Both the position numbers and the translations under genes were made by a program. The notes under the pieces were generated by a model. The model worked only from the letters and a program-made list of their open reading frames with translations. It did not search any database and had not been told where the DNA came from. Below, in pieces: positions 4,792-58,433 of a stretch of 64,000 nucleotides of DNA. The stretch's first letter is position 1. Each line of letters opens with the position of its first letter. Source of the DNA: Nafulsella turpanensis ZLM-10 (GTDB lineage: Bacteria; Bacteroidota; Bacteroidia; Cytophagales; Cyclobacteriaceae); contig NZ_ANNU01000015.1 in NCBI RefSeq assembly GCF_000346615.1, forward strand, positions 1 to 64,000, written 5' to 3'.

Positions 4792-6636
4792 CTAATTCGG
4801 GAAATCGCCGCGCAGGGTTCGAAAACGCTTACGGGCATCCGAGACATACACACTACCTGGATAAAGGCTTAGAAACTCACGATAATACTCCATAGCCTGT
4901 TGTTTGTTATCCAGGTATTCCTCGTATATGCGGGCTCGCTGGTAAAAGGCATCATCGCCCAAAACATCCTGACCCCAGTTTTGTGTAATTTGGGTAAGCT
5001 TGTCCACAGCCAGGCTATAGTTGCCCAGCTCAAGTGCAATCTTCGCCTGTAAATTCAGTACCTCATCTGTAAGGCTGTGCCCCCTAAATTCTGAAAGCAG
5101 GCTGTCGAGCGACTGCAGGGCAGCTTCTTTTTTGTTCTGGAAGAGCAGTAATTCCGCATCTGCATATTGCTTCATGGCCCTGTCGGACGTATCGAGTGCG
5201 CTATTGGTCTTGATTAAGAGACTCAGCGCCATGGCGTCGTTGGCAATTTCGCGGGTGGTGGCTTCTTTCAGTACGTCTAAATGACCCTGGGCAAGGGCAA
5301 ATTCTCCTTTATAGTAGGATAGCTTAGCATTTTTAAGCTTTGCCTCATACCCGAGTGGTTCATCCTTATGTTCCTTTTCAACCTGTGAATAAAGAAGGGT
5401 GGCTTCCCATGGTTCACCAGCCAAAAGGTAGATATCGCCCAGTGCCAGTTTACTTTGTGCCCTCAGGTTTTCATCGACACGGGGAGCAGCTATGATGGTT
5501 TTGAGGATACTGATGGCCGAGTCTTTCTGGTCAAGATAAAACGCATGCAGCATGGCCTTACTGTTAAGTGCTTCGAGGGAGGTGTTATTGATACCTATTT
5601 CCTTTACCAGCTGCTCATAATCTTTTACAAGCTTTACAATTTCCTGCCTGTCTACCGGGTAAGTATTCTTTACCAGTTCCTCTCTTGCCTTTATTACATA
5701 GCGGCGAGCCACATAGTAGGCATTTCCCTGCCTGAACTCATCGGCAATATATTCGAAAATTTGTATGGCCTCCGGGTAAGCCTGGTTATCCAGGGCAATA
5801 ATGCCTAAATCAATTAATTCAGATGCGCCTGTCTGCAGGCGTTTTTGCATCGCTCTGGCCTGGACAAAAGCACCATAAAAGTTTTTCTGCTGTACGTTTA
5901 CCCAAATCAGTAAATCGGAGAAATGGAGGTTATCTGGATTCTTCTGTACCTTTTCGAATAAAATTCTTTTAAATGCCTCTAAATCTTCTGGTTCTGAGAG
6001 TGAAGCCTGGAGCATATTCTTTACATACTCCATATTCCGGGGGTTTTGCTCAATATAGCGAAAGTATTCGCTAATCATTTTCTCTTTTTCGCCCATAGCT
6101 CTGTAGATATTTGCCATCTGTAAAGCATAGGCACCAGTTTCATCTTTTTGCACTTCCCGGGCCCGCTGGTACGTCTGCAGGGTTCTATCGTATAAGCGCT
6201 TGTTGAAAAAGAGTTGGGCAACTAAATTGGTTTTATAATTATTGCTGATGGCTGCACTTATAATCTCTTCGTACAGCTTATTCGCTTTTTTTGTCTCTCC
6301 CTGCAGTTCGTAAAGACGGGCCAGGTCTATCTGGTACATTTCCGGATTAGCGTGGCTCTTTACCTGTCGCTCCAGGTAGTTTTCGGCATCTTTATAAGCC
6401 TGGGTACTTATTAACAGCTCCAGGTAATTATCGTGGATAAAAGGAACGTTCTCGCTGTTCTTGACGAGGGTTTCATACATCGAAAGCGCTTTTTCTGTTT
6501 CACCCTGCTCGAAATACTGGTTGGCAAGCCGAATATCTTCCTGATCCTGTGCATAAGAAGCAGGAACAAGCCAGATGAGCATTGCACAAAGGGCAAAAAA
6601 GAATCGGAACGAGCTAATTTTTTCACTTATACACAT
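4792..6636 (-). CDS. Exported tetratricopeptide-repeat protein
   Basis: The protein has 614 residues with a signal peptide (hydrophobic residues about 11-27, cleavage near ASYAQ). Degenerate TPR helices follow throughout, for example NQYFEQGETEKALSMYETLV, and the C-terminal repeat DKLTQITQNWGQDVLGDDAF followed by AMEYYREFLSLYPGSVYVSD, which resembles outer-membrane-assembly TPR scaffolds. It is probably a periplasmic scaffold, and no partner is evident. The start codon ATG (6634-6636) overlaps a perfect DnaA box at 6627-6635 on the border of the candidate replication origin. The gene is transcribed away from that origin. The exact function is not known. Confidence 0.8.
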   Translation of the reverse strand: MCISEKISSFRFFFALCAMLIWLVPASYAQDQEDIRLANQYFEQGETEKALSMYETLVKNSENVPFIHDNYLELLISTQAYKDAENYLERQVKSHANPEMYQIDLARLYELQGETKKANKLYEEIISAAISNNYKTNLVAQLFFNKRLYDRTLQTYQRAREVQKDETGAYALQMANIYRAMGEKEKMISEYFRYIEQNPRNMEYVKNMLQASLSEPEDLEAFKRILFEKVQKNPDNLHFSDLLIWVNVQQKNFYGAFVQARAMQKRLQTGASELIDLGIIALDNQAYPEAIQIFEYIADEFRQGNAYYVARRYVIKAREELVKNTYPVDRQEIVKLVKDYEQLVKEIGINNTSLEALNSKAMLHAFYLDQKDSAISILKTIIAAPRVDENLRAQSKLALGDIYLLAGEPWEATLLYSQVEKEHKDEPLGYEAKLKNAKLSYYKGEFALAQGHLDVLKEATTREIANDAMALSLLIKTNSALDTSDRAMKQYADAELLLFQNKKEAALQSLDSLLSEFRGHSLTDEVLNLQAKIALELGNYSLAVDKLTQITQNWGQDVLGDDAFYQRARIYEEYLDNKQQAMEYYREFLSLYPGSVYVSDARKRFRTLRGDFPN

Positions 6637-7013
6637 TATCCCCTGCCTAATTATTAATATTGGTTCAATTTATAAATAAGTTATTATATCTATTAAGGTG
6701 TGAATTCGTGGATAAGTTTCTGAATTGCCTTTCTCAGTTTTGTATTTTACAGCCTTTTCTGAAAAATGGCGCTTTTTAAAAACTTTTAACCTTTTAAAAA
6801 TCAATTAGTTATATACTTGTTCTTAAAGTAGTACATGAATATTTTATGAAGTTTAGAATGGTGGGTAATTGTGGAAAGGCGGGTGAATTGTTTCTGCTAA
6901 GTGGCCGACTTTACACACATCCGATTTCCACGAGAGGCAACTGTGTATTATTGCCTTTTTATCCACCCCCTGTTTCCACACTTTCCACTACTTATACACA
7001 TCGTTTATTCACG
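6627..7013. other. oriC: Candidate chromosomal replication origin (oriC): DnaA-box cluster
   Basis: Two perfect DnaA boxes TTATACACA (6627-6635 and 6992-7000, same orientation) bracket an AT-rich gap. One-mismatch boxes lie at 6707-6715 (minus, TTATCCACG), 6911-6919 (TTACACACA), 6942-6950 (minus, TAATACACA), 6959-6967 (TTATCCACC) and 7005-7013 (TTATTCACG). Weaker TTTCCAC repeats lie at 6870-6878, 6972-6980 and 6981-6989. About 200 bases of strongly AT-rich DNA (6640-6850) could be the unwinding element. mnmG and parS sites within 5 kb support the call. It is not proven, because skew and dnaA location were not tested. Confidence 0.7.
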
Positions 7014-8699
7014 TACTTCTATTTCTTTCAGTTCCCAGTTTGCCTTTAGGCTAATTGTTTCATCCAGTAGAATTACAGGTTCAGGCTCTATCCTTTCGTA
7101 GATATTACCCGGATCCCACTGTCCGTTTTCATTTTCATCTATCAGCACTCTTATGCGGTACTCCCCGGGTGCTACATAATTAAAGGTAAAGTTGTGTTGA
7201 TTCTCCACTTCTTTTACCACTTTAAAGGTATTGGCATCAAGGAGCTGAATGGTGAAGGAATCTGCCTCGCTGGAAAAGCGGCCCTGTAGCAGTCCAAAGT
7301 TTTTAGCATCTGCCCAGCGGTAGCTTAGTTCAGATGCTTTGGAGCTGTCCTGTTCTGCACTAATAAAAGCAGCTTTGCCTAAATGCAGGCTAAACCCGTT
7401 TGTCGCCGTTGGCTGCACTGGTATTTCTTCCTGTAGTGAAGCTTTTTCTGATGACTGGTTTGCGATAGTTTTTGTTGGCTCGAGAAGTTTATTGATCTCC
7501 AGTCTGTCGCGCCGGCTGTTCCACGTGAAGTCTTTTTCAGGCACAATCTGCACGGTCGTAAGACTATCGTAGCGGATAAAAAGGCTGTCGGTATTTACTT
7601 CCTTCACAGGTTTCGTAAAGGAAATGGTGGCGGTAAAATCTTTTTCTACAGCAGCTCCTGACTTTGGTATAACAGTATACTCGAAAGGGCCTTTCTCCCG
7701 CTTGCTCTCCTGGAATTTAACATAGACTGTATCCTGTAACTGCTGGCCCAGTGAATCGGTTAATGAGAGAAAAGTAGCAAGACTATCCTGTATAGGCCAT
7801 GCATTATACACCCTGATAGTTTTATTTTCTTCCACCAGGTTGCTGTAGAGCGGTTCTTCTGTTTCTTCCAGTGGTTGTAGCTCATAATCTTTTACTGCCT
7901 TATTCAGCCTGATATCAAAATAAGGGCCGGAAGGTCTGGCACTGTTAACGGCCGGTGGATTGGTGTTAATACTAAGTAAATTTATATTTAAAGAGTCTAT
8001 ATTTGAATTTAAGTATATTGTATCTTTAATAAATCCAAAAGGCTCATTACTCGCTTCGGTTTTCAGGTTCCTGTTGGCATCTGCGGTAGCGTACAGTAGA
8101 TACTCTCCTACCTTTAGATTATTAAACTGAAAAAAACCTGTTTCATCTGTTTTTGAAAGATAGTAAGGCCTGCTGTTAAAAATATTAAGGGTATCCTTTG
8201 CACGGTAGAGGCCTACCAGCGCATCGGCTACCGGCTCTCCGGTTAAGAGCCGTTGTACGGTGCCTGAAATTGACATAGAATCAAGGAATGCTCCGGTACT
8301 AAATGCGAGCTGCAAATCTTCTACCGGATTTCCTTCGTTTAAATCTGAAATTCCCTCACGAAAGCTAAGGGTATAAGTAGTATTTGTATCGAAAGGTTGT
8401 TGGAAAAGGAGTTCAACCGTATTTTTATTTATTTTGGTTTTATACTCTCCTTGTATGGAGGGCGTAATAATGAGCTGATTTGCCAGGTCTTTTACCTGTA
8501 CCGCTTCATTAAATTCAAGCCGTACAATTCTTTCATTATAATGCACGGCCCCACCTGTAGGATTTACCTTTACCAGTGCCGGCGGAATGGTGTCTTTAGG
8601 ACCTCCGGTGGGCGTGCTGATATTTGCACAGGAGGTAACAAAGACCTGAATAAAGAAATAAATGCCTGCGATAACAATCCAGTAGTTGCGCTTTCTCAT
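7005..8699 (-). CDS. Ig-like (Big_5) domain lipoprotein
   Basis: The protein has 564 residues. A lipoprotein signal ends VTSC with the lipidated cysteine at residue 24. The phrase PTGGPKDTIPPALVKVNPT then leads into an SbsA/Big_5 Ig-like domain (about 38-135: RIVRLEFNEAV, TYTLSFREGISDLNEGN). A carboxypeptidase-regulatory-like domain follows (about 140-215: SGTV, GEPVADALVGLY, GFFQFNNLKVGEYLL). The C-terminus has an EYRIRVLIDENENGQWD motif of the kind seen at the ends of this family. It is likely anchored in the outer membrane, and its role is unknown. It lies 4 bases after the methyltransferase gene in the mnmG run. A degenerate parS (7517-7532) lies within it. Confidence 0.85.
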   Translation of the reverse strand: MRKRNYWIVIAGIYFFIQVFVTSCANISTPTGGPKDTIPPALVKVNPTGGAVHYNERIVRLEFNEAVQVKDLANQLIITPSIQGEYKTKINKNTVELLFQQPFDTNTTYTLSFREGISDLNEGNPVEDLQLAFSTGAFLDSMSISGTVQRLLTGEPVADALVGLYRAKDTLNIFNSRPYYLSKTDETGFFQFNNLKVGEYLLYATADANRNLKTEASNEPFGFIKDTIYLNSNIDSLNINLLSINTNPPAVNSARPSGPYFDIRLNKAVKDYELQPLEETEEPLYSNLVEENKTIRVYNAWPIQDSLATFLSLTDSLGQQLQDTVYVKFQESKREKGPFEYTVIPKSGAAVEKDFTATISFTKPVKEVNTDSLFIRYDSLTTVQIVPEKDFTWNSRRDRLEINKLLEPTKTIANQSSEKASLQEEIPVQPTATNGFSLHLGKAAFISAEQDSSKASELSYRWADAKNFGLLQGRFSSEADSFTIQLLDANTFKVVKEVENQHNFTFNYVAPGEYRIRVLIDENENGQWDPGNIYERIEPEPVILLDETISLKANWELKEIEVRE

Positions 8700-8703
8700 G
8701 CTG

Positions 8704-9582
8704 CTATTTACTGATGATATAGATTAAACTTGAATAGTTATTTGATGTACGTGCTTTTAAATTGGAGCGAAGGCCTACCAAGCTGGCTTTGGCCATATTA
8801 GGCTTCCCGGTTTTATGCTTTTCGCTTAGCATACTTACGTAATAGGCATCCAGCTTCATGGGGACAACTGCCTGTATATGCATATCAAATTTTCTCCACC
8901 ATTGCTCCATGGTCTGTTGGGTGAAATGGTACAAATGACGGGGTACATCATAAGCTGCCCAGTACTCCTGATAATATTGTGCATCATACGATTCGGAATT
9001 CGGAACGGCCACGAAAAGCATTCCCTTCGGCGCAAGTAGCTCTTTTATTTTTAAGCAGCTTTCTTCCAGATTAGAAATATGCTCCAGCACATGCCAAAGG
9101 GTAATGGCCTGGAACTGCTTTTCTTTTGTAACAGCATCAAGTGAGGCAAACAGGGGTTGTTGAACAAGCTGTTCGGCCTGGGCCCGGGCTTTATCATTTA
9201 CCTCTACCCCGCTAACGGTCCATTTAAGCTTTTTATTATAGTCAATAAACTCTCCTGTTCCGCAGCCTATATCCAGCAGTCTTCCTTTCTTTCCCCACTT
9301 TCCGATAAGCCTGCTTTTCTGCTGAATGGTGTAGATTCTCGCCAGTTTATAAAGGTTATTAATCAGGTTGTTTCCTTCATTTGTATGGGAGATATAATCT
9401 TCCGATTCATAATACTTTCCTAATTCACTTTCTACCGGTCTTGGGTTGGTAAACCTGAATCCGCAATGGTTGCAGGAAACAATTCTAAAGCTTTCCTGGC
9501 TCACCGAAAAGTCTTTCAGTTTTTTATACAAAGTAAAGTGCCCGCTCTTGCAAAGCGGGCATTGGTTGAGGTGTTCTTCCAT
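8704..9582 (-). CDS. Class I SAM-dependent methyltransferase with N-terminal zinc ribbon
   Basis: The protein has 292 residues. The N-terminus carries a four-cysteine zinc ribbon (CPLCKSG at about 8-14 and CNHCGF at about 37-42). A Rossmann methyltransferase domain follows with motif I LLDIGCGTGEF near residue 105, an acidic VSGVEVN strand-2 end, and the motif IV region ITLWHVLEHISNL. HVLEH is the hallmark of the Methyltransf_23 group. The substrate is unknown, and family members act on sugars, quinones or small molecules. It is encoded between mnmG (15 bases upstream) and the Ig-like lipoprotein (4 bases downstream), so it is probably cotranscribed. Confidence 0.85.
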   Translation of the reverse strand: MEEHLNQCPLCKSGHFTLYKKLKDFSVSQESFRIVSCNHCGFRFTNPRPVESELGKYYESEDYISHTNEGNNLINNLYKLARIYTIQQKSRLIGKWGKKGRLLDIGCGTGEFIDYNKKLKWTVSGVEVNDKARAQAEQLVQQPLFASLDAVTKEKQFQAITLWHVLEHISNLEESCLKIKELLAPKGMLFVAVPNSESYDAQYYQEYWAAYDVPRHLYHFTQQTMEQWWRKFDMHIQAVVPMKLDAYYVSMLSEKHKTGKPNMAKASLVGLRSNLKARTSNNYSSLIYIISK

Positions 9583-9597
9583 TTTTCTGATGGACTA

Positions 9598-11460
9598 TTA
9601 TCTTCCTAAATAAATCATGATGATGGAAATATCGGCCGGCGATACTCCACTTATTCGGCTTGCCTGCCCGATAGTAGCAGGCTTCATTTTGTGTAGTTTC
9701 TGCCGTGCTTCTGCCGAGAGTGCTGTAATTTTATGGTAGTCGAAATCTTCGGGTATCCTGTGGTTCTCCAAGCTGCCCATTTTTTCGGCCAGCTTTTCTT
9801 CTTTATCTATGTAATTATCGTATTTGATCTGGATTTCTGCCTGTTCCAGCACTTCTTTGCTATATTTTTTCAGGTATTGTGCCAGCTCACTATCTAGTTG
9901 CATGAGTTCCGGCATTCCTATTTGAGGGCGTTTTAGCAGCTGCATAGCCGATACCTTCTCCCGTATAGTGGCCGTATTCAAATCTTCCAGCGTATGATTG
10001 ATGGCTTCGGGCTCTACCTTTTTTAGTTTAAGGTCATTTAAAAGCCTTTTTACATCATTTCTTTTGTCGATCATTTTTTCCAGGCGCTCATCAGAGGCCA
10101 GTCCTAGTTTATGGCCGGCTTCTGTTAGCCTTAAATCTGCATTGTCCTGTCGTAGAAGAATTCTAAATTCTGCCCTGGAGGTAAACATCCGGTAAGGTTC
10201 TTCTGTTCCTTTATTGATTAGGTCGTCGATCAACACACCTATGTACGCATCGGATCTTTTTAGAATGAAAGGGTCTTTCTCGTGAACCTTGTTGTGCGCA
10301 TTTATGCCGGCCACTAAGCCCTGGCAGCCGGCTTCTTCATAGCCGGTGGTGCCATTTATCTGGCCTGCAAAATAGAGGTTCTCGATGAGTTTTGTCTCCA
10401 GTGTTTGGTTCAGTTGCGTTGGCGGGAAGAAATCATACTCGATGGCATAGCCGGGCCTGAACATTTTTACATTTTCGAAGCCTTCTATTTTGCGGATGGC
10501 TTTGTACTGGATGTCCTCCGGAAGCGAGGTGGAGAAGCCATTTACATATATTTCTACCGTATTCCAGCCTTCCGGCTCTACAAATATCTGGTGGCGATCT
10601 CTTTCTGCGAAGCGGTTGATTTTATCTTCTATCGAGGGGCAATAGCGAGGACCAAGGCCTTTGATGCGCCCGTTAAACATAGGAGAACGATCAAATCCTT
10701 CCTGCAGGCTTTCATGAACTGCTGTATTGGTATAGGTAATATAGCAGCTTCTTTGCTCTTTTAAGGGAGCAGTTGTAAGGTAAGAGAAGCATCCTGGCTC
10801 TTCATCGCCAAACTGTTCTTCCATTTTGCTATAATCAAGCGAGCGGCCATCTACTCTTGGGGGTGTTCCGGTTTTCATTCGGCCTGCCTCGAAACCTAAA
10901 CTTACCAGTTGCTCAGTTAATCCGGTTGCTGCTTTCTCGCCTGTTCTACCTCCGCCAAATTGTTTTTCACCTATATGGATGATGCCATTTAAGAAGGTTC
11001 CATTGGTGAGCACTACGGCTTTTGCCTTTATTTCCAGACCCATTCCTGTCTTTATTCCGACCACTCTCCCATCCTTCACCATTAATTCGCGCACCATTTC
11101 CTGCCAAAAATCCACGTTTGGGGTCTGTTCCAGCGCCAGGCGCCACTCTTCTGCAAAGCGCATCCGGTCATTCTGACTCCTTGGGCTCCACATGGCTGGT
11201 CCTTTCGATTTATTCAGCATCCGGAATTGAATCATTGACTTGTCCGATATAATACCGGACATGCCTCCCAATGCATCTATTTCTCGCACTATCTGGCCTT
11301 TGGCTACTCCTCCCATTGCAGGGTTACATGACATTTGGGCAATCGTATTCATGTTCATGGTCGCCAGCAAAACTTTCGAGCCCATTTTAGCTGCTGCATG
11401 TGCTGCCTCACATCCTGCATGGCCGGCACCTACTACTATTACATCGTAATCTGGAAACAT
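9598..11460 (-). CDS. mnmG: tRNA uridine-5-carboxymethylaminomethyl modification enzyme MnmG (GidA)
   Basis: This FAD enzyme works with MnmE to install the carboxymethylaminomethyl group on U34 of certain tRNAs. The start used here is the ATG giving MFPDYDVIVVGAGHAG (620 residues). The longer reading frame to 11523 would translate through a parS site and adds 21 residues without family support. The dinucleotide-binding GAGHAG motif lies near residue 11. Both GidA signatures are present, GLGPRYCPSIEDK (about 275) and YEEAGCQGLVAGINAH (about 375). The length is normal. mnmG is often near oriC in bacteria, which fits the DnaA boxes and parS sites here. Confidence 0.96.
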   Translation of the reverse strand: MFPDYDVIVVGAGHAGCEAAHAAAKMGSKVLLATMNMNTIAQMSCNPAMGGVAKGQIVREIDALGGMSGIISDKSMIQFRMLNKSKGPAMWSPRSQNDRMRFAEEWRLALEQTPNVDFWQEMVRELMVKDGRVVGIKTGMGLEIKAKAVVLTNGTFLNGIIHIGEKQFGGGRTGEKAATGLTEQLVSLGFEAGRMKTGTPPRVDGRSLDYSKMEEQFGDEEPGCFSYLTTAPLKEQRSCYITYTNTAVHESLQEGFDRSPMFNGRIKGLGPRYCPSIEDKINRFAERDRHQIFVEPEGWNTVEIYVNGFSTSLPEDIQYKAIRKIEGFENVKMFRPGYAIEYDFFPPTQLNQTLETKLIENLYFAGQINGTTGYEEAGCQGLVAGINAHNKVHEKDPFILKRSDAYIGVLIDDLINKGTEEPYRMFTSRAEFRILLRQDNADLRLTEAGHKLGLASDERLEKMIDKRNDVKRLLNDLKLKKVEPEAINHTLEDLNTATIREKVSAMQLLKRPQIGMPELMQLDSELAQYLKKYSKEVLEQAEIQIKYDNYIDKEEKLAEKMGSLENHRIPEDFDYHKITALSAEARQKLHKMKPATIGQASRISGVSPADISIIMIYLGR

Positions 11461-11478
11461 ATACTCTTTCTCTATTGA

Positions 11479-11494
11479 TGTTCCACGTGGAACA
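11479..11494. promoter_or_regulatory. parS: parS centromere site 1
   Basis: TGTTCCACGTGGAACA is a perfect 16-base palindrome and matches the ParB-binding parS consensus. It lies 18 bases upstream of the mnmG start. In most bacteria parS sites cluster around oriC, where ParB loads SMC and drives origin segregation. Confidence 0.9.
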
Positions 11495-11515: not shown

Positions 11516-11531
11516 TGTTCCACGTGGAACA
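11516..11531. promoter_or_regulatory. parS: parS centromere site 2
   Basis: This is a second identical perfect TGTTCCACGTGGAACA palindrome, 37 bases centre to centre from site 1, in the mnmG-ybeY gap. Two exact 16-base copies this close cannot reasonably be chance. Confidence 0.9.
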
Positions 11532-20229: not shown

Positions 20230-20245
20230 TGTTCCACGTGAAACT
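20230..20245. promoter_or_regulatory. parS: parS centromere site 3 (one mismatch)
   Basis: TGTTCCACGTGAAACT matches the parS consensus TGTTnCACGTGAAACA at 15 of 16 positions. It lies between the AhpD-like gene and comF, 8.7 kb from the parS pair. A TTG codon here could extend the comF frame through the site, but family comparison argues against that start. Confidence 0.8.
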
Positions 20246-54000: not shown

Positions 54001-56403
54001 ATGAAAAGAACCATTAATAAGGTAACCGTATTAGGCTCCGGTATTATGGGCTCGCGAATAGCGGCACATTTTGCCAATATCGGGGTAAAAGTACGCCTGC
54101 TCGATATTGCCCCCTTCGAACTGAATGAAGAGGAAAAGGCGAAAGGGCTGAGCCTGGACGACCCAAGGGTAAAAATGCGCATCGTGAACCAGGCATGGGA
54201 AAATACTTTAAAATCGAAGCCTGCCTCCCTCTACGATGCCTCTTTTGCCGAGCGCGTAACCCTTGGCAACTTCAAAGACCATATGAAGGACATTGGCGAC
54301 AGCGATTGGGTAATTGAAGTGGTAGTTGAAAACCTGAAAATTAAAAAGCAGGTATTTGAAGAGGTAGAGAAGTACCGCAAAAAAGGCACCCTCATTACCT
54401 CCAACACCTCGGGTATCCCCATCCACCTGATGCTCGACGGCCGTTCCGATGATTTTCAGAGACACTTTGCAGGCAGCCACTTCTTTAATCCGCCCCGCTA
54501 CCTGAAGCTGCTCGAAATTATTCCTACCCCCAAAACTGACCCTGAAGTTACCGACTTCCTCATGAAGTACGGCGACCGCTACCTTGGTAAAACCACCGTA
54601 CTGTGTAAAGATACTCCTGCCTTTATCGCCAACCGTGTAGGTATTTTTGGCATTATGAAGGTGGTCGATACCATGAAGAAAATGGACCTGAGTGTGGATG
54701 AAGTGGACAAGCTAACCGGTCCTGTAATTGGCCGCCCCAAATCAGCTACCTTCCGTACTTCCGATGTCGTTGGCCTCGATACCTTAGTAAATGTGGCCAA
54801 CGGGCTCTACGAAGGTCTGCCAAACGATGAGCGCCGCGAAATATTTAAGCTTCCGCCCGAAGTAAATGCCCTGGCCGAACGTAAGTGGCTGGGCGATAAA
54901 ACCGGGCAGGGCTTCTATAAAAAGACCAAAGACAAGGAGGGCAAAACCGAAATCCTGACGCTCGACCTGAAGGATATGGAGTACAAGCCGAAGCAAAAAG
55001 TAAAATTTGCCACGCTTGAACAAACTAAGCCTATCGAAAACCTGCGCGAGCGTATGCCGGTGCTGCTTTCAGGCAAAGATAAAGCCGGCGAATTCTACCG
55101 CGACTCTTTCTACGGTCTGTTCGAGTATGTTTCGAACCGCATTCCGGAAATTGCCGACGAGCTCTACCGTATCGACGATGCCCTCCGCGCCGGTTTTGGC
55201 TGGGAGTTAGGACCCTTCCAGACATGGGATGCCGTTGGCGTGAAAAAGACGGTTTCCAAAATGGAAGAAATGGGCTATAAGCCTAAGCAGTGGGTGTACG
55301 ACATGCTGGAATCCGGTAACGAAAGCTTCTATAAAGTAGAAGGCGGGCAGAAGCTGTATTACGATATCGACAGCAAGTCCTACAAAGCCGTACCAGGTAC
55401 CGAAGAATTTATTCTGCTCGATACTCTTCGCAAAAATAGCAAAGTATGGGGCAATGCAGATGCAACCATCCTCGACCTGGGCGATGGTATCCTAAACCTT
55501 GAGTTCCATAGCAAAATGAATACCATGGGTGCCGGCGTGGTCGAAGGCATCAACCGCGCCATCAGCCTTGCCGAAGAGAAATACCGCGGCCTCGTTATTG
55601 CCAACGAAGGCGCTAACTTCTCGGCCGGAGCCAACCTTGGCATGGTGTTTATGTATGCCATTGAGCAGGAGTACGACGAAATCGATTTCATGATTCGCCA
55701 GTTCCAGAACACCATTATGCGGGCCCGCTACAGCAGCATTCCGGTTGTAGTGGCACCACACGGCATGACCCTCGGTGGTGGCTGCGAGCTTACCATGCAC
55801 GCCGACCAGGTGGTGGCTGCGGCCGAAACCTATATCGGTCTGGTAGAAGTGGGTGTTGGTCTCATTCCCGGTGGTGGCGGTACCAAGGAGATGACGCTTC
55901 GCGCTGCCGATGAGACTGAAATCGGTGATGTGGAATTTAATGTGCTGCAGAACTCCTTCATGAACATTGCTACCGCTAAGGTAGCCACCTCTGCTCATGA
56001 AGCGCGCGGCATGAACATTCTCCGGAAAAAGGATATGATTGTGGTGAATAAAGACCGCCAGATTGCCGATGCCAAAGCGGCCGCCATTGCCATGGCCGAA
56101 GCCGGCTATGTGCAGCCCATCCAGCGTACCGATATTAGGGTGCAGGGCCGTTCTGGTATGGCGCTCTTCCTGGCCGGTATTCATGGCATGCGTGCAGGTA
56201 ATTATATCTCTGCCCACGACCAGAAGATAGCCGAAAAGATAGCCAACGTCATGTGCGGCGGCGATCTCTCTTATGCACAAAATGTATCGGAGCAGTACCT
56301 GCTGGACCTCGAACGCGAAGCCTTCCTCAGCCTCTGTGCCGAAAAGAAAACCCTTGAGCGCATCCAGGCCATTTTGCAGGGCGGAAAACCACTTCGTAAC
56401 TAG
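54001..56403 (+). CDS. fadN: 3-hydroxyacyl-CoA dehydrogenase / enoyl-CoA hydratase (FadN type)
   Basis: The ATG at 54001 gives 800 residues beginning KRTINKVTVLGSGIMGSRIA. An upstream TTG-started frame reads through repeats and is rejected. The dehydrogenase comes first: NAD motif VLGSGIMGSRIAAHF (about 8-22), SNTSGIPIHLM, and GSHFFNPPRYLKLLEII. Its helical domain contains DTPAFIANRVG. The hydratase is C-terminal: ANEGANFSAGANLGMVF and MTLGGGCELTMHADQ with EVGVGLIPGGGG carrying the catalytic glutamates. This dehydrogenase-then-hydratase order is that of B. subtilis FadN, the reverse of E. coli FadB. It performs the two middle steps of beta-oxidation in the cytosol. The stop codon abuts element A. 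Confidence 0.94.
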   Translation: MKRTINKVTVLGSGIMGSRIAAHFANIGVKVRLLDIAPFELNEEEKAKGLSLDDPRVKMRIVNQAWENTLKSKPASLYDASFAERVTLGNFKDHMKDIGDSDWVIEVVVENLKIKKQVFEEVEKYRKKGTLITSNTSGIPIHLMLDGRSDDFQRHFAGSHFFNPPRYLKLLEIIPTPKTDPEVTDFLMKYGDRYLGKTTVLCKDTPAFIANRVGIFGIMKVVDTMKKMDLSVDEVDKLTGPVIGRPKSATFRTSDVVGLDTLVNVANGLYEGLPNDERREIFKLPPEVNALAERKWLGDKTGQGFYKKTKDKEGKTEILTLDLKDMEYKPKQKVKFATLEQTKPIENLRERMPVLLSGKDKAGEFYRDSFYGLFEYVSNRIPEIADELYRIDDALRAGFGWELGPFQTWDAVGVKKTVSKMEEMGYKPKQWVYDMLESGNESFYKVEGGQKLYYDIDSKSYKAVPGTEEFILLDTLRKNSKVWGNADATILDLGDGILNLEFHSKMNTMGAGVVEGINRAISLAEEKYRGLVIANEGANFSAGANLGMVFMYAIEQEYDEIDFMIRQFQNTIMRARYSSIPVVVAPHGMTLGGGCELTMHADQVVAAAETYIGLVEVGVGLIPGGGGTKEMTLRAADETEIGDVEFNVLQNSFMNIATAKVATSAHEARGMNILRKKDMIVVNKDRQIADAKAAAIAMAEAGYVQPIQRTDIRVQGRSGMALFLAGIHGMRAGNYISAHDQKIAEKIANVMCGGDLSYAQNVSEQYLLDLEREAFLSLCAEKKTLERIQAILQGGKPLRN

Positions 56404-56821
56404 TAGTGGGTATTGAGTAGTGAGTATTGGGATTTACAGATTATGCACAACTACAAAGAATTGAATGTTTGGAAGTTAGCTGTAGACTTCGCCACAGATG
56501 TGTATAAAATCACTGCTCAATTTCCTGCCGAGGAGAGATTTGGGCTGCAATCGCAAATTAGGAGGAGTGCAGTATCTATTGCCTCCAACATTGCTGAAGG
56601 TGCAGGTAGAAACTCTAAGGGAGAGTTTAAACAGTTTTTAGGAATCGCATACGGATCTGCCTATGAGTTGGAAACACAGTTCTTCATTAGCAGAAACTTA
56701 GCATTTATAACAGAAGAAGAAATTAACCAGGTGGTGAATAAAATTGAGACTATCCAAAAAATGATTTACAAGCTTAAATCCAGCCTTAGTTAGGCTGTCT
56801 CAATACTCACTACCCACTACT
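56402..56821 (+). mobile_element. Element A: inverted-repeat-flanked four-helix-bundle unit
   Basis: This unit of about 420 bases fills the fadN-fadA junction. The left end (56402-56429) pairs with the right end (56801-56821): AGTAGTGGGTA (56402-56412) with TACCCACTACT, and GTGAGTATTG (56420-56429) with CAATACTCAC, with only a 7-base bulge on the left. The fadN stop TAG overlaps the left end. Inside is one four-helix-bundle gene. The structure recalls 23S rRNA intervening sequences, which carry the same protein family in a hairpin. Mobility is inferred. Confidence 0.65.
56443..56793 (+). CDS. Four-helix-bundle protein (S23 / IVS-encoded family), element A
   Basis: The ATG at 56443 gives 116 residues beginning HNYKELNVWKLAVDFATDVY. 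The TTG-started frame from 56413 begins inside the terminal repeat. The family signature is complete: FPAEERFGLQSQIRRSAVSI, SNIAEGAGRNSKGEFKQFL, and GSAYELETQFFISRNL. The fold is a small antiparallel four-helix bundle that forms pentamers in homologues. It relates to proteins encoded in 23S rRNA intervening sequences and to the Avd accessory protein of diversity-generating retroelements. Nucleic-acid binding is likely but not shown. It sits inside the fadNAE operon and is co-oriented with it. It is only moderately similar to the element B protein. Confidence 0.9.
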   Translation: MHNYKELNVWKLAVDFATDVYKITAQFPAEERFGLQSQIRRSAVSIASNIAEGAGRNSKGEFKQFLGIAYGSAYELETQFFISRNLAFITEEEINQVVNKIETIQKMIYKLKSSLS

Positions 56822-58006: not shown

Positions 58007-58433
58007 CGTTGATGGTTGTTCGTTGTTAGTTGTTCGAAAAAATGAGTCAGTTACAATACACCGATTTAGATGTGTGGCAGGTTGCGAGAAAGCTTGTGAA
58101 AGAGGTGTATGTTCAAAGCAGAGCTTTTCCGAAGGAGGAAGCCTTTGGTTTAACGAGCCAAATAAGACGAGCAGCCATCTCTGTCCCTTCTAATATAGCA
58201 GAAGGATGTGGAAGGAGCAGTAGCAAAGAGTCCGTGCACTTCTATTTTATTGCAAGAGGAAGTCTTTATGAATTAGAAACCCAACTTTTTCTGGCACTTG
58301 ATATGGGATTTCTATCTCATGAAGCATTTGAATCTCTAATCCAGCAAGCAGAACGGTGCAAGAAACTACTGAATGGATTTATCCGGTACTTCAAAGCCAA
58401 ATACGAACAACCATCAACGAACAACTGACAACG
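58007..58433 (+). mobile_element. Element B: inverted-repeat-flanked four-helix-bundle unit
   Basis: This unit of 427 bases fills the fadA-fadE junction. The ends 58007-58036 and 58404-58433 are 30-base inverted repeats with 25 matching positions, including a 17-base perfect pair (CGTTGATGGTTGTTCGT at 58007-58023 with its complement at 58403-58419, in permuted register). It begins 1 base after the fadA stop and ends 23 bases before the fadE start. It carries one four-helix-bundle gene whose 3' end is encoded by the repeat itself. The terminal sequence is unrelated to that of element A. Mobility is inferred. Confidence 0.65.
58042..58428 (+). CDS. Four-helix-bundle protein (S23 / IVS-encoded family), element B
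   Basis: The ATG at 58042 gives 128 residues beginning SQLQYTDLDVWQVARKLVKE. The TTG frame from 58030 begins in the terminal repeat. The signature matches the family: FPKEEAFGLTSQIRRAAISV, SNIAEGCGRSSSKESVHFYF and GSLYELETQLFLALDM. The last residues (about YEQPSTNN) are encoded by the right inverted repeat, so the protein's tail depends on the element end. The function is unknown and nucleic-acid binding is likely. The protein differs from the element A protein in most positions outside the core motifs, so the two units are separate acquisitions. Confidence 0.9.
   Translation: MSQLQYTDLDVWQVARKLVKEVYVQSRAFPKEEAFGLTSQIRRAAISVPSNIAEGCGRSSSKESVHFYFIARGSLYELETQLFLALDMGFLSHEAFESLIQQAERCKKLLNGFIRYFKAKYEQPSTNN

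Follow-up and report, generated by a model that had tools for sequence, protein, structure and literature searches.

Does the short gap between a TPR-protein gene and a gene for an Ig-like protein hold the point at which replication of this chromosome begins? We examined the gap within the window, the whole stretch of 64,000 nucleotides analysed here, which corresponds to positions 1–64000 of contig C15 in a host assembly of 4.80 Mb and 109 contigs. The gap at 6637–7004, together with DnaA boxes that reach into both flanking genes, is very probably the chromosomal replication origin, oriC. This predicted assignment, which a preliminary description had put forward for 6627–7013, is supported by a cluster of DnaA boxes, an adjoining unstable core that would melt easily, a place conserved among relatives, nearby parS-consensus sites and a switch of skew at the orthologous gap in closed relatives.

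DnaA boxes and the unstable core

The features of the gap are as follows.

6637–7004, no strand: core oriC spacer (predicted), 368 bp, from the lipoprotein stop to the TPR start, assigned from its box counts and a position kept in relatives
6619–7013: extent of the box cluster
6627–6635, plus strand: perfect DnaA box TTATACACA, overlapping the TPR start codon; a box lies near the TPR start in many relatives too
6648–6688, no strand: predicted DNA unwinding element, the least stable 40-step window in 104 kb by nearest-neighbour duplex stability
6680–6698, minus strand: AT-rich tract with triplet-phased adenines, DnaA-trio-like, adjoining the tandem boxes
6699–6715, minus strand: tandem DnaA boxes 8 bp apart, TTATCCACG then GAATTCACA, the second with two mismatches
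6707–6715, minus strand: DnaA box, one mismatch
6911–6919, plus strand: DnaA box TTACACACA, one mismatch, overlapping CTTTACACA at 6909
6942–6950, minus strand: DnaA box TAATACACA, one mismatch
6959–6967, plus strand: DnaA box TTATCCACC, one mismatch
6992–7000, plus strand: perfect DnaA box TTATACACA, near the lipoprotein stop and at the same place in the congener G001
7005–7013, plus strand: DnaA box TTATTCACG, one mismatch, overlapping the lipoprotein stop

Rescanning 6627–7013 with TTATNCACA returned seven sites, two perfect and five with one mismatch, exactly the count that had been claimed. With the pattern TTWTNCACA the cluster holds 12 boxes (2 of them perfect), whereas elsewhere in the 104 kb of host contig read the highest count per 400 bp is 5. 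Dinucleotide shuffles of 6610–7013 (n = 2000) gave a mean of 1.6 boxes and a maximum of 7, and in 60 control stretches of 20 kb each, taken from three relatives, no 400 bp held more than 8. The gap therefore carries the dense intergenic DnaA-box cluster by which an oriC is recognised. The host DnaA that would read these boxes has a canonical recognition helix, FGGRDHSTVIHA, and is homologous to PDB 1j1v, named as DnaA. Three further perfect DnaA boxes form a smaller group at 56117–56516 of the window, partly in coding sequence.

One might read the boxes as a chance cluster, given that the region is AT-rich and that boxes are somewhat enriched across the whole window. Yet the count was reached in none of the 2000 local shuffles, the cluster is kept across the order (see below), and box bases are more conserved than their flanks: in the spacer of the congener G001, 84% of box bases are identical, compared to 63% of the other bases. 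Shuffles, order-wide conservation and box-base conservation together rule this reading out, and we regard its probability as practically nil.

Read from the lipoprotein gene towards the TPR gene, the gap has a box at +5 and the tandem pair, 8 bp apart, at about +290, followed by two bases, TTAATAGATATAATAAC, the AT-rich tract and finally the box that overlaps the TPR start codon. The AT-rich core that had been described is borne out by a G+C content of 0.33 and by the least stable 40-step window of the 104 kb, which lies inside the cluster. An easily unwound AT-rich element thus adjoins the boxes when judged with 40-step windows; with 60- and 100-step windows the candidate ranks second, not first, in the same 104 kb.

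The tandem pair followed by TWATA (6691–6715, minus strand) has a single match in the whole host genome. For comparisons among spacers we used 29 of 30 loci, L020 being omitted because its contig ends inside the spacer. The strict form of the pattern occurs in 8 of these 29 spacers (the host included) and a form with at most one mismatch in the pair in 16, and neither form has a match in 1.49 Mb of control sequence. The gap accordingly shows the arrangement of a basal unwinding system (BUS), in which a DnaA box, often tandem, stands beside the unwinding element.

A further mark of such systems is a series of DnaA-trios (NAN on the 3'-5' strand), three or more of them no farther than 16 bp from a box. 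In the 22 of the 29 spacers with a placeable tandem pair, the period-3 contrast of adenines after the tandem boxes is 0.31, against a maximum of 0.20 in shuffles that ignore kinship among the 22 spacers (0 of 1000 reached the observed value), and the phased adenines sit on the strand where the tandem boxes read TTATCCAC. Counted formally, the host has 2 trios on the side of the tandem boxes (shuffle mean 2.1) and 5 on the side of the 6627 box, at spacer 15 (shuffle mean 3.1). At least three trios were found on the tandem side in 10 of 22 spacers and on the 6627-box side in 14 of 17, little above shuffles. The strict trio count was rejected: runs are hardly longer than in shuffles, although the triplet phase beats every shuffle.

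In the mechanism that this layout suggests, DnaA supplied by a gene elsewhere on the chromosome would bind the boxes of the gap and spread from the tandem boxes at 6699–6715, from the box at 6627, or from both, onto the AT-rich tract at 6648–6698, which would melt under it. Helicase would be loaded at the melted tract, two forks would then depart in opposite directions, and ParB bound to two sites 4.5 kb away may help the new origins to separate.

Conservation of the locus and its parS-consensus sites

On the lipoprotein side the gap is followed by a block of genes and two parS-consensus sites; the TPR gene forms the opposite flank. In the gene counts below, some of the 30 loci are cut by contig ends.

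4792–6636, minus strand: TPR-repeat protein, conserved opposite flank, in 26 of 30 loci
7005–8699, minus strand: Ig-like (Big_5) protein, called a lipoprotein from its sequence, conserved origin flank
8704–9582, minus strand: methyltransferase-domain protein, part of the conserved block, in 23 of 30 loci
9598–11466, minus strand: mnmG (gidA; TIGR00136, 863.7 bits), in 26 of 30 loci
11479–11494, no strand: parS-consensus site 1
11516–11531, no strand: parS-consensus site 2

Both flanking genes are those named in the preliminary description, and mnmG and the two perfect parS sites that it had placed within 5 kb are indeed there, at 9598–11466 and at 11479 and 11516, respectively. The lipoprotein was matched in 58 of 59 genomes. 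Among the best 30 of these 58, all from the order, 28, host included, have the box-richest 400 bp of the locus read immediately 3' of the lipoprotein gene, the two misses being G058 and G056; the conservation that had been proposed as a check was thus found, both in the position of the cluster and in the box bases. Clusters of the relatives hold 6 to 16 boxes, so that some, with counts as low as 6–8, do not exceed the control maximum of 8. We also examined the lipoprotein locus in six more matched genomes (G046, G045, G040, G013, G011 and G039); five new genomes gave 6–17 boxes in G045, G040, G013 and G011 and only 4 in G039. Two further members of the order have 22 and 19 boxes 3' of the lipoprotein. 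A metagenome-assembled genome labelled 'Cytophagaceae bacterium' (JAIXWQ010000009.1) has mnmG with a parS site just upstream, the methyltransferase gene, the lipoprotein gene and then 14 boxes; past the cluster stands a homologue of the window's AMP-binding gene, with no TPR match. The label of this genome is the single named pointer to Cytophagales as the order.

The lipoprotein gene itself was considered as the cause of the boxes. It is present in 195 of 198 genomes sampled across the phylum, from which 30 loci were chosen, mostly one per family (2 in the order and 28 outside it, of which L135 ends at the gene). In the 27 readable loci outside the order, the first 1 kb past the 3' end of the lipoprotein gene never exceeds 5 boxes per 400 bp. 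The only one with a cluster, G060, has 9 boxes 2.1 kb from the lipoprotein and is also the sole one of the 27 with mnmG beside it. On these 27 loci the lipoprotein gene as such was rejected as the cause. Among four named loci, from Flavobacteriaceae, Flavobacteriales (two) and Chitinophagaceae, three have no cluster and the fourth, L199, is without the 3' side. In G056 the lipoprotein and mnmG genes are apart, and six boxes in 400 bp (L192:2903–3302) lie 3.3 kb 3' of mnmG, a group that is possibly a displaced origin.

The host genome has only two copies of the motif TGTTNCACGTGNAACA, which we take to be parS; both stand a short way upstream of mnmG, 4.5 kb from the gap. In G036 and G028 the consensus stands at the same distance from the gap as in the host; exact copies were found neither in 200 kb of G030 nor in 1.2 Mb of controls. 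Of nine stretches around mnmG, five (G040, G039, G058, G011 and G012) have the consensus at most 0.6 kb upstream of that gene, and it was not found in those of G045, G013, G056 and G037. The host parB gene is on another contig. A third parS-like site, TGTTCCACGTGAAACT, lies at 20230–20245 of the window, 13 kb from the origin; it has two mismatches to the palindrome and is outside the consensus.

GC skew, dnaA and promoter-like sites

With the host assembly split into 109 contigs, we turned to closed relatives for the skew test, sampling 20 evenly spaced stretches of 20 kb per genome and fitting the best least-squares step from minus to plus. In G030, G036 and G028, all from the host's family, the best of 20 possible boundaries falls exactly at the orthologous gap, with mean skews after and before it of +0.026 and −0.034, +0.073 and −0.070, and +0.034 and −0.026, respectively. 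G045, a closed genome of another family with only 6 boxes, has noisy skew, and its best boundary is 2 of 20 steps off. Three of the four closed relatives therefore showed the skew minimum named beforehand as a check, in the form of a switch at the orthologous gap; G045 did not.

At finer scale, the cumulative-skew minimum over 80 kb of G028 is at 5784717, within the gap at 5784703–5785060, and the local minima of G030 and G036 lie 7.5 kb and 44 kb off the gap. In the host contig the cumulative minimum is at 14.5 kb, about 8 kb from the gap, with a floor that is flat to about 24 kb, and not at 6.8 kb. Coding-strand bias was discarded as too weak an origin marker: it fitted the gap to within one step in G036 but missed it in G030, and for G028 the gap was the best boundary, yet with nearly equal halves (0.57 vs 0.53).

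The resolution of skew bears on a different interpretation, which places the true origin elsewhere nearby and sees in the cluster either a site that titrates or reactivates DnaA (similar to datA or DARS) or a promoter through which DnaA controls the TPR gene. A perfect box does overlap the TPR start codon, and in several genomes skew alone places the origin no better than to tens of kb. Against this, no better cluster was found in 104 kb of host contig, 200 kb of G030, 180 kb of G036 or 80 kb of G028, the unstable core is correctly spaced from the tandem boxes, and the skew switches at the orthologous gap, with parS-consensus sites nearby. We give this interpretation a slim chance and retain the gap as the predicted origin.

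An origin beside dnaA, as in many bacteria, with the present cluster as a secondary one, would agree with general expectation and with the start of the G028 record at dnaA. The data speak otherwise: dnaA is 0.86 Mb (G030), 0.90 Mb (G036) and 0.96 Mb (G028) from the gap at which the skew switches, and skew does not change sign there: of the samples nearest to dnaA, those to one side are positive and those to the other zero or positive. Moreover, the 19 kb read around the host dnaA, which is on another contig, nowhere holds more than 5 boxes per 400 bp. On the skew in these three genomes and the sparse boxes around the host dnaA, an origin at that gene was rejected as extremely improbable, and the gap remains the preferred site. 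With its start at dnaA, the G028 record (G028:C1:1, L152) opens nearly 1 Mb from the place where the skew switches.

A pair of stable-RNA promoters had been noted 6.5 kb from the cluster. Both rRNA-type promoter-like sites (TACCTTTGC...) are present, one with one mismatch at 92–105 and an exact one at 245–258, both on the minus strand and facing off the contig start, but over the window the scanned pattern turns up at least as often as expected by chance, and the pair adds little. No RNA gene was found near these two sites. In G030 and G036, the 20 kb to either side of the orthologous site gave no Rfam match, and rRNA beside the origin was therefore set aside as a candidate. SSU rRNA was not found anywhere in the host assembly; together with the outward-facing promoter-like sites, this means that an rRNA operon may lie just beyond this end of the contig. 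Elsewhere in the window, two genes for 23S rRNA-intervening-sequence (four-helix) proteins, at 56413–56793 and 58030–58428, sit among genes that appear by sequence to be for fatty-acid oxidation, behind a MarR-type regulator.

Known origins and a genus with a changed DnaA helix

Origins far from dnaA and near mnmG are already known for Bacteroidota, and the present site adds another such predicted origin. According to the accessible text of PMC4755523, oriC is commonly far from dnaA in Bacteroidetes, in line with the statement of the preliminary description that in many Bacteroidota it is not beside that gene. The oriC of Prevotella intermedia OMA14, as given there, resembles the present site in being a DnaA-box cluster at a skew transition with dnaA not near, in a group different from that of the host. 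In the available portions of PMC11278836 and PMC12843772, Ori-Finder places oriC next to mnmG in Mariniflexile litorale and Algorimicrobium bowmanii, respectively, likewise near mnmG and in agreement with GC skew, and in M. litorale the skew was at odds with the position of dnaA (PMC11278836). That text has oriC at mnmG and ter at leuB, and a figure legend has the labels reversed. Both species belong to Flavobacteriaceae or kin and not to the host's order, and the same portions give no gene-level layout with a lipoprotein and a TPR gene.

The basal unwinding system of Bacillus subtilis and others, as outlined in the accessible text of PMC8287927, is similar in its tandem boxes, short spacer and triplet-phased AT-rich tract. 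In contrast to the B. subtilis rule as we understand it from that source, where the trio adenines are on the other strand, those of the present tract are on the TTATCCAC strand. Our literature searches, on origins of the order and on oriC near mnmG in the phylum, with subscription papers mostly outside them, gave no paper with this gene layout among the matches listed. Replicative oriC plasmids of Cytophaga hutchinsonii, from what is probably the host's order, were reportedly obtained by Xu et al. in 2012.

Two genomes of family f4 with few canonical boxes, G058 (3 per 400 bp) and G039 (4), keep the gene order and a parS site. Their DnaA helix reads GGKDQS(T/A)ISHA in place of GGRDHSTVIHA, and their gaps carry 9 (G058) and 8 (G039) copies of YTRTTCAW. 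Shuffles of these gaps gave means of 0.31 and 0.36 copies and a maximum of 3 in 1000, a comparison that is not independent because the motif was derived from the same gaps; the 28 other spacers have 0 or 1 copy each. In the accessible text of PMC5043019, E. coli DnaA residues 432–435 are among those with base-specific contacts. By an alignment made by eye, the changed His would correspond to residue 434 of the E. coli protein.

We extended the comparison to 13 genomes of f4, in which the lipoprotein locus was found in 12 (none for G255), DnaA was matched in 12 and its helix was read in 11. The congener G259, whose DnaA has His, carries 15 perfect TTATTCACA boxes and 4 variant sites, and G258, whose DnaA has Gln, shows a single near-canonical box beside 4 variant sites. 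G256 and G260 combine His with both forms, and the variant box can therefore occur without Gln. Each of the six f4 genomes that have the TPR neighbour carries 4–18 boxes of one or the other kind per 400 bp. In the five that lack this neighbour, canonical boxes number no more than 4 per 400 bp, with no perfect one among them, and variant sites no more than 1. Since its contig stops 344 bp past the lipoprotein gene, G257, with four one-mismatch boxes and no variant in its gap, was left out of this count. The Gln change was probably one evolutionary event, since the Gln genomes are congeneric. The spacer of relatives thus appears to change its box type when the DnaA helix changes, and the exceptions G058 and G039 would in this way support the origin reading. 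A different helix, FGKRHHSTVIHA with Asp changed to His, was seen in G037 (L159, L193), in which no lipoprotein and at most 5 boxes per 400 bp were found near mnmG.

A broader proposal, which we advance tentatively and with more doubt than confidence, is that the origin of the order is a module anchored in gene order (mnmG, methyltransferase, Ig-like lipoprotein, oriC and TPR, with parS upstream of mnmG) that stays fixed while dnaA sits elsewhere, that the adenine triplets of its tract lie on the strand opposite to the B. subtilis rule, and that in one genus initiator and origin were re-coded together, with DnaA His changed to Gln at a DNA-contacting position and TTATTCACA to YTRTTCAW. The locus provides a firm oriC candidate for a group whose genome records may start at dnaA (e.g., G028), and a synteny rule and motif for locating the origin even in draft assemblies, with uses in estimating growth rates from read depth and in building oriC plasmids. 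The related genus, in which DnaA helix and boxes both differ, offers a natural pair for the study of joint change in initiator and origin.
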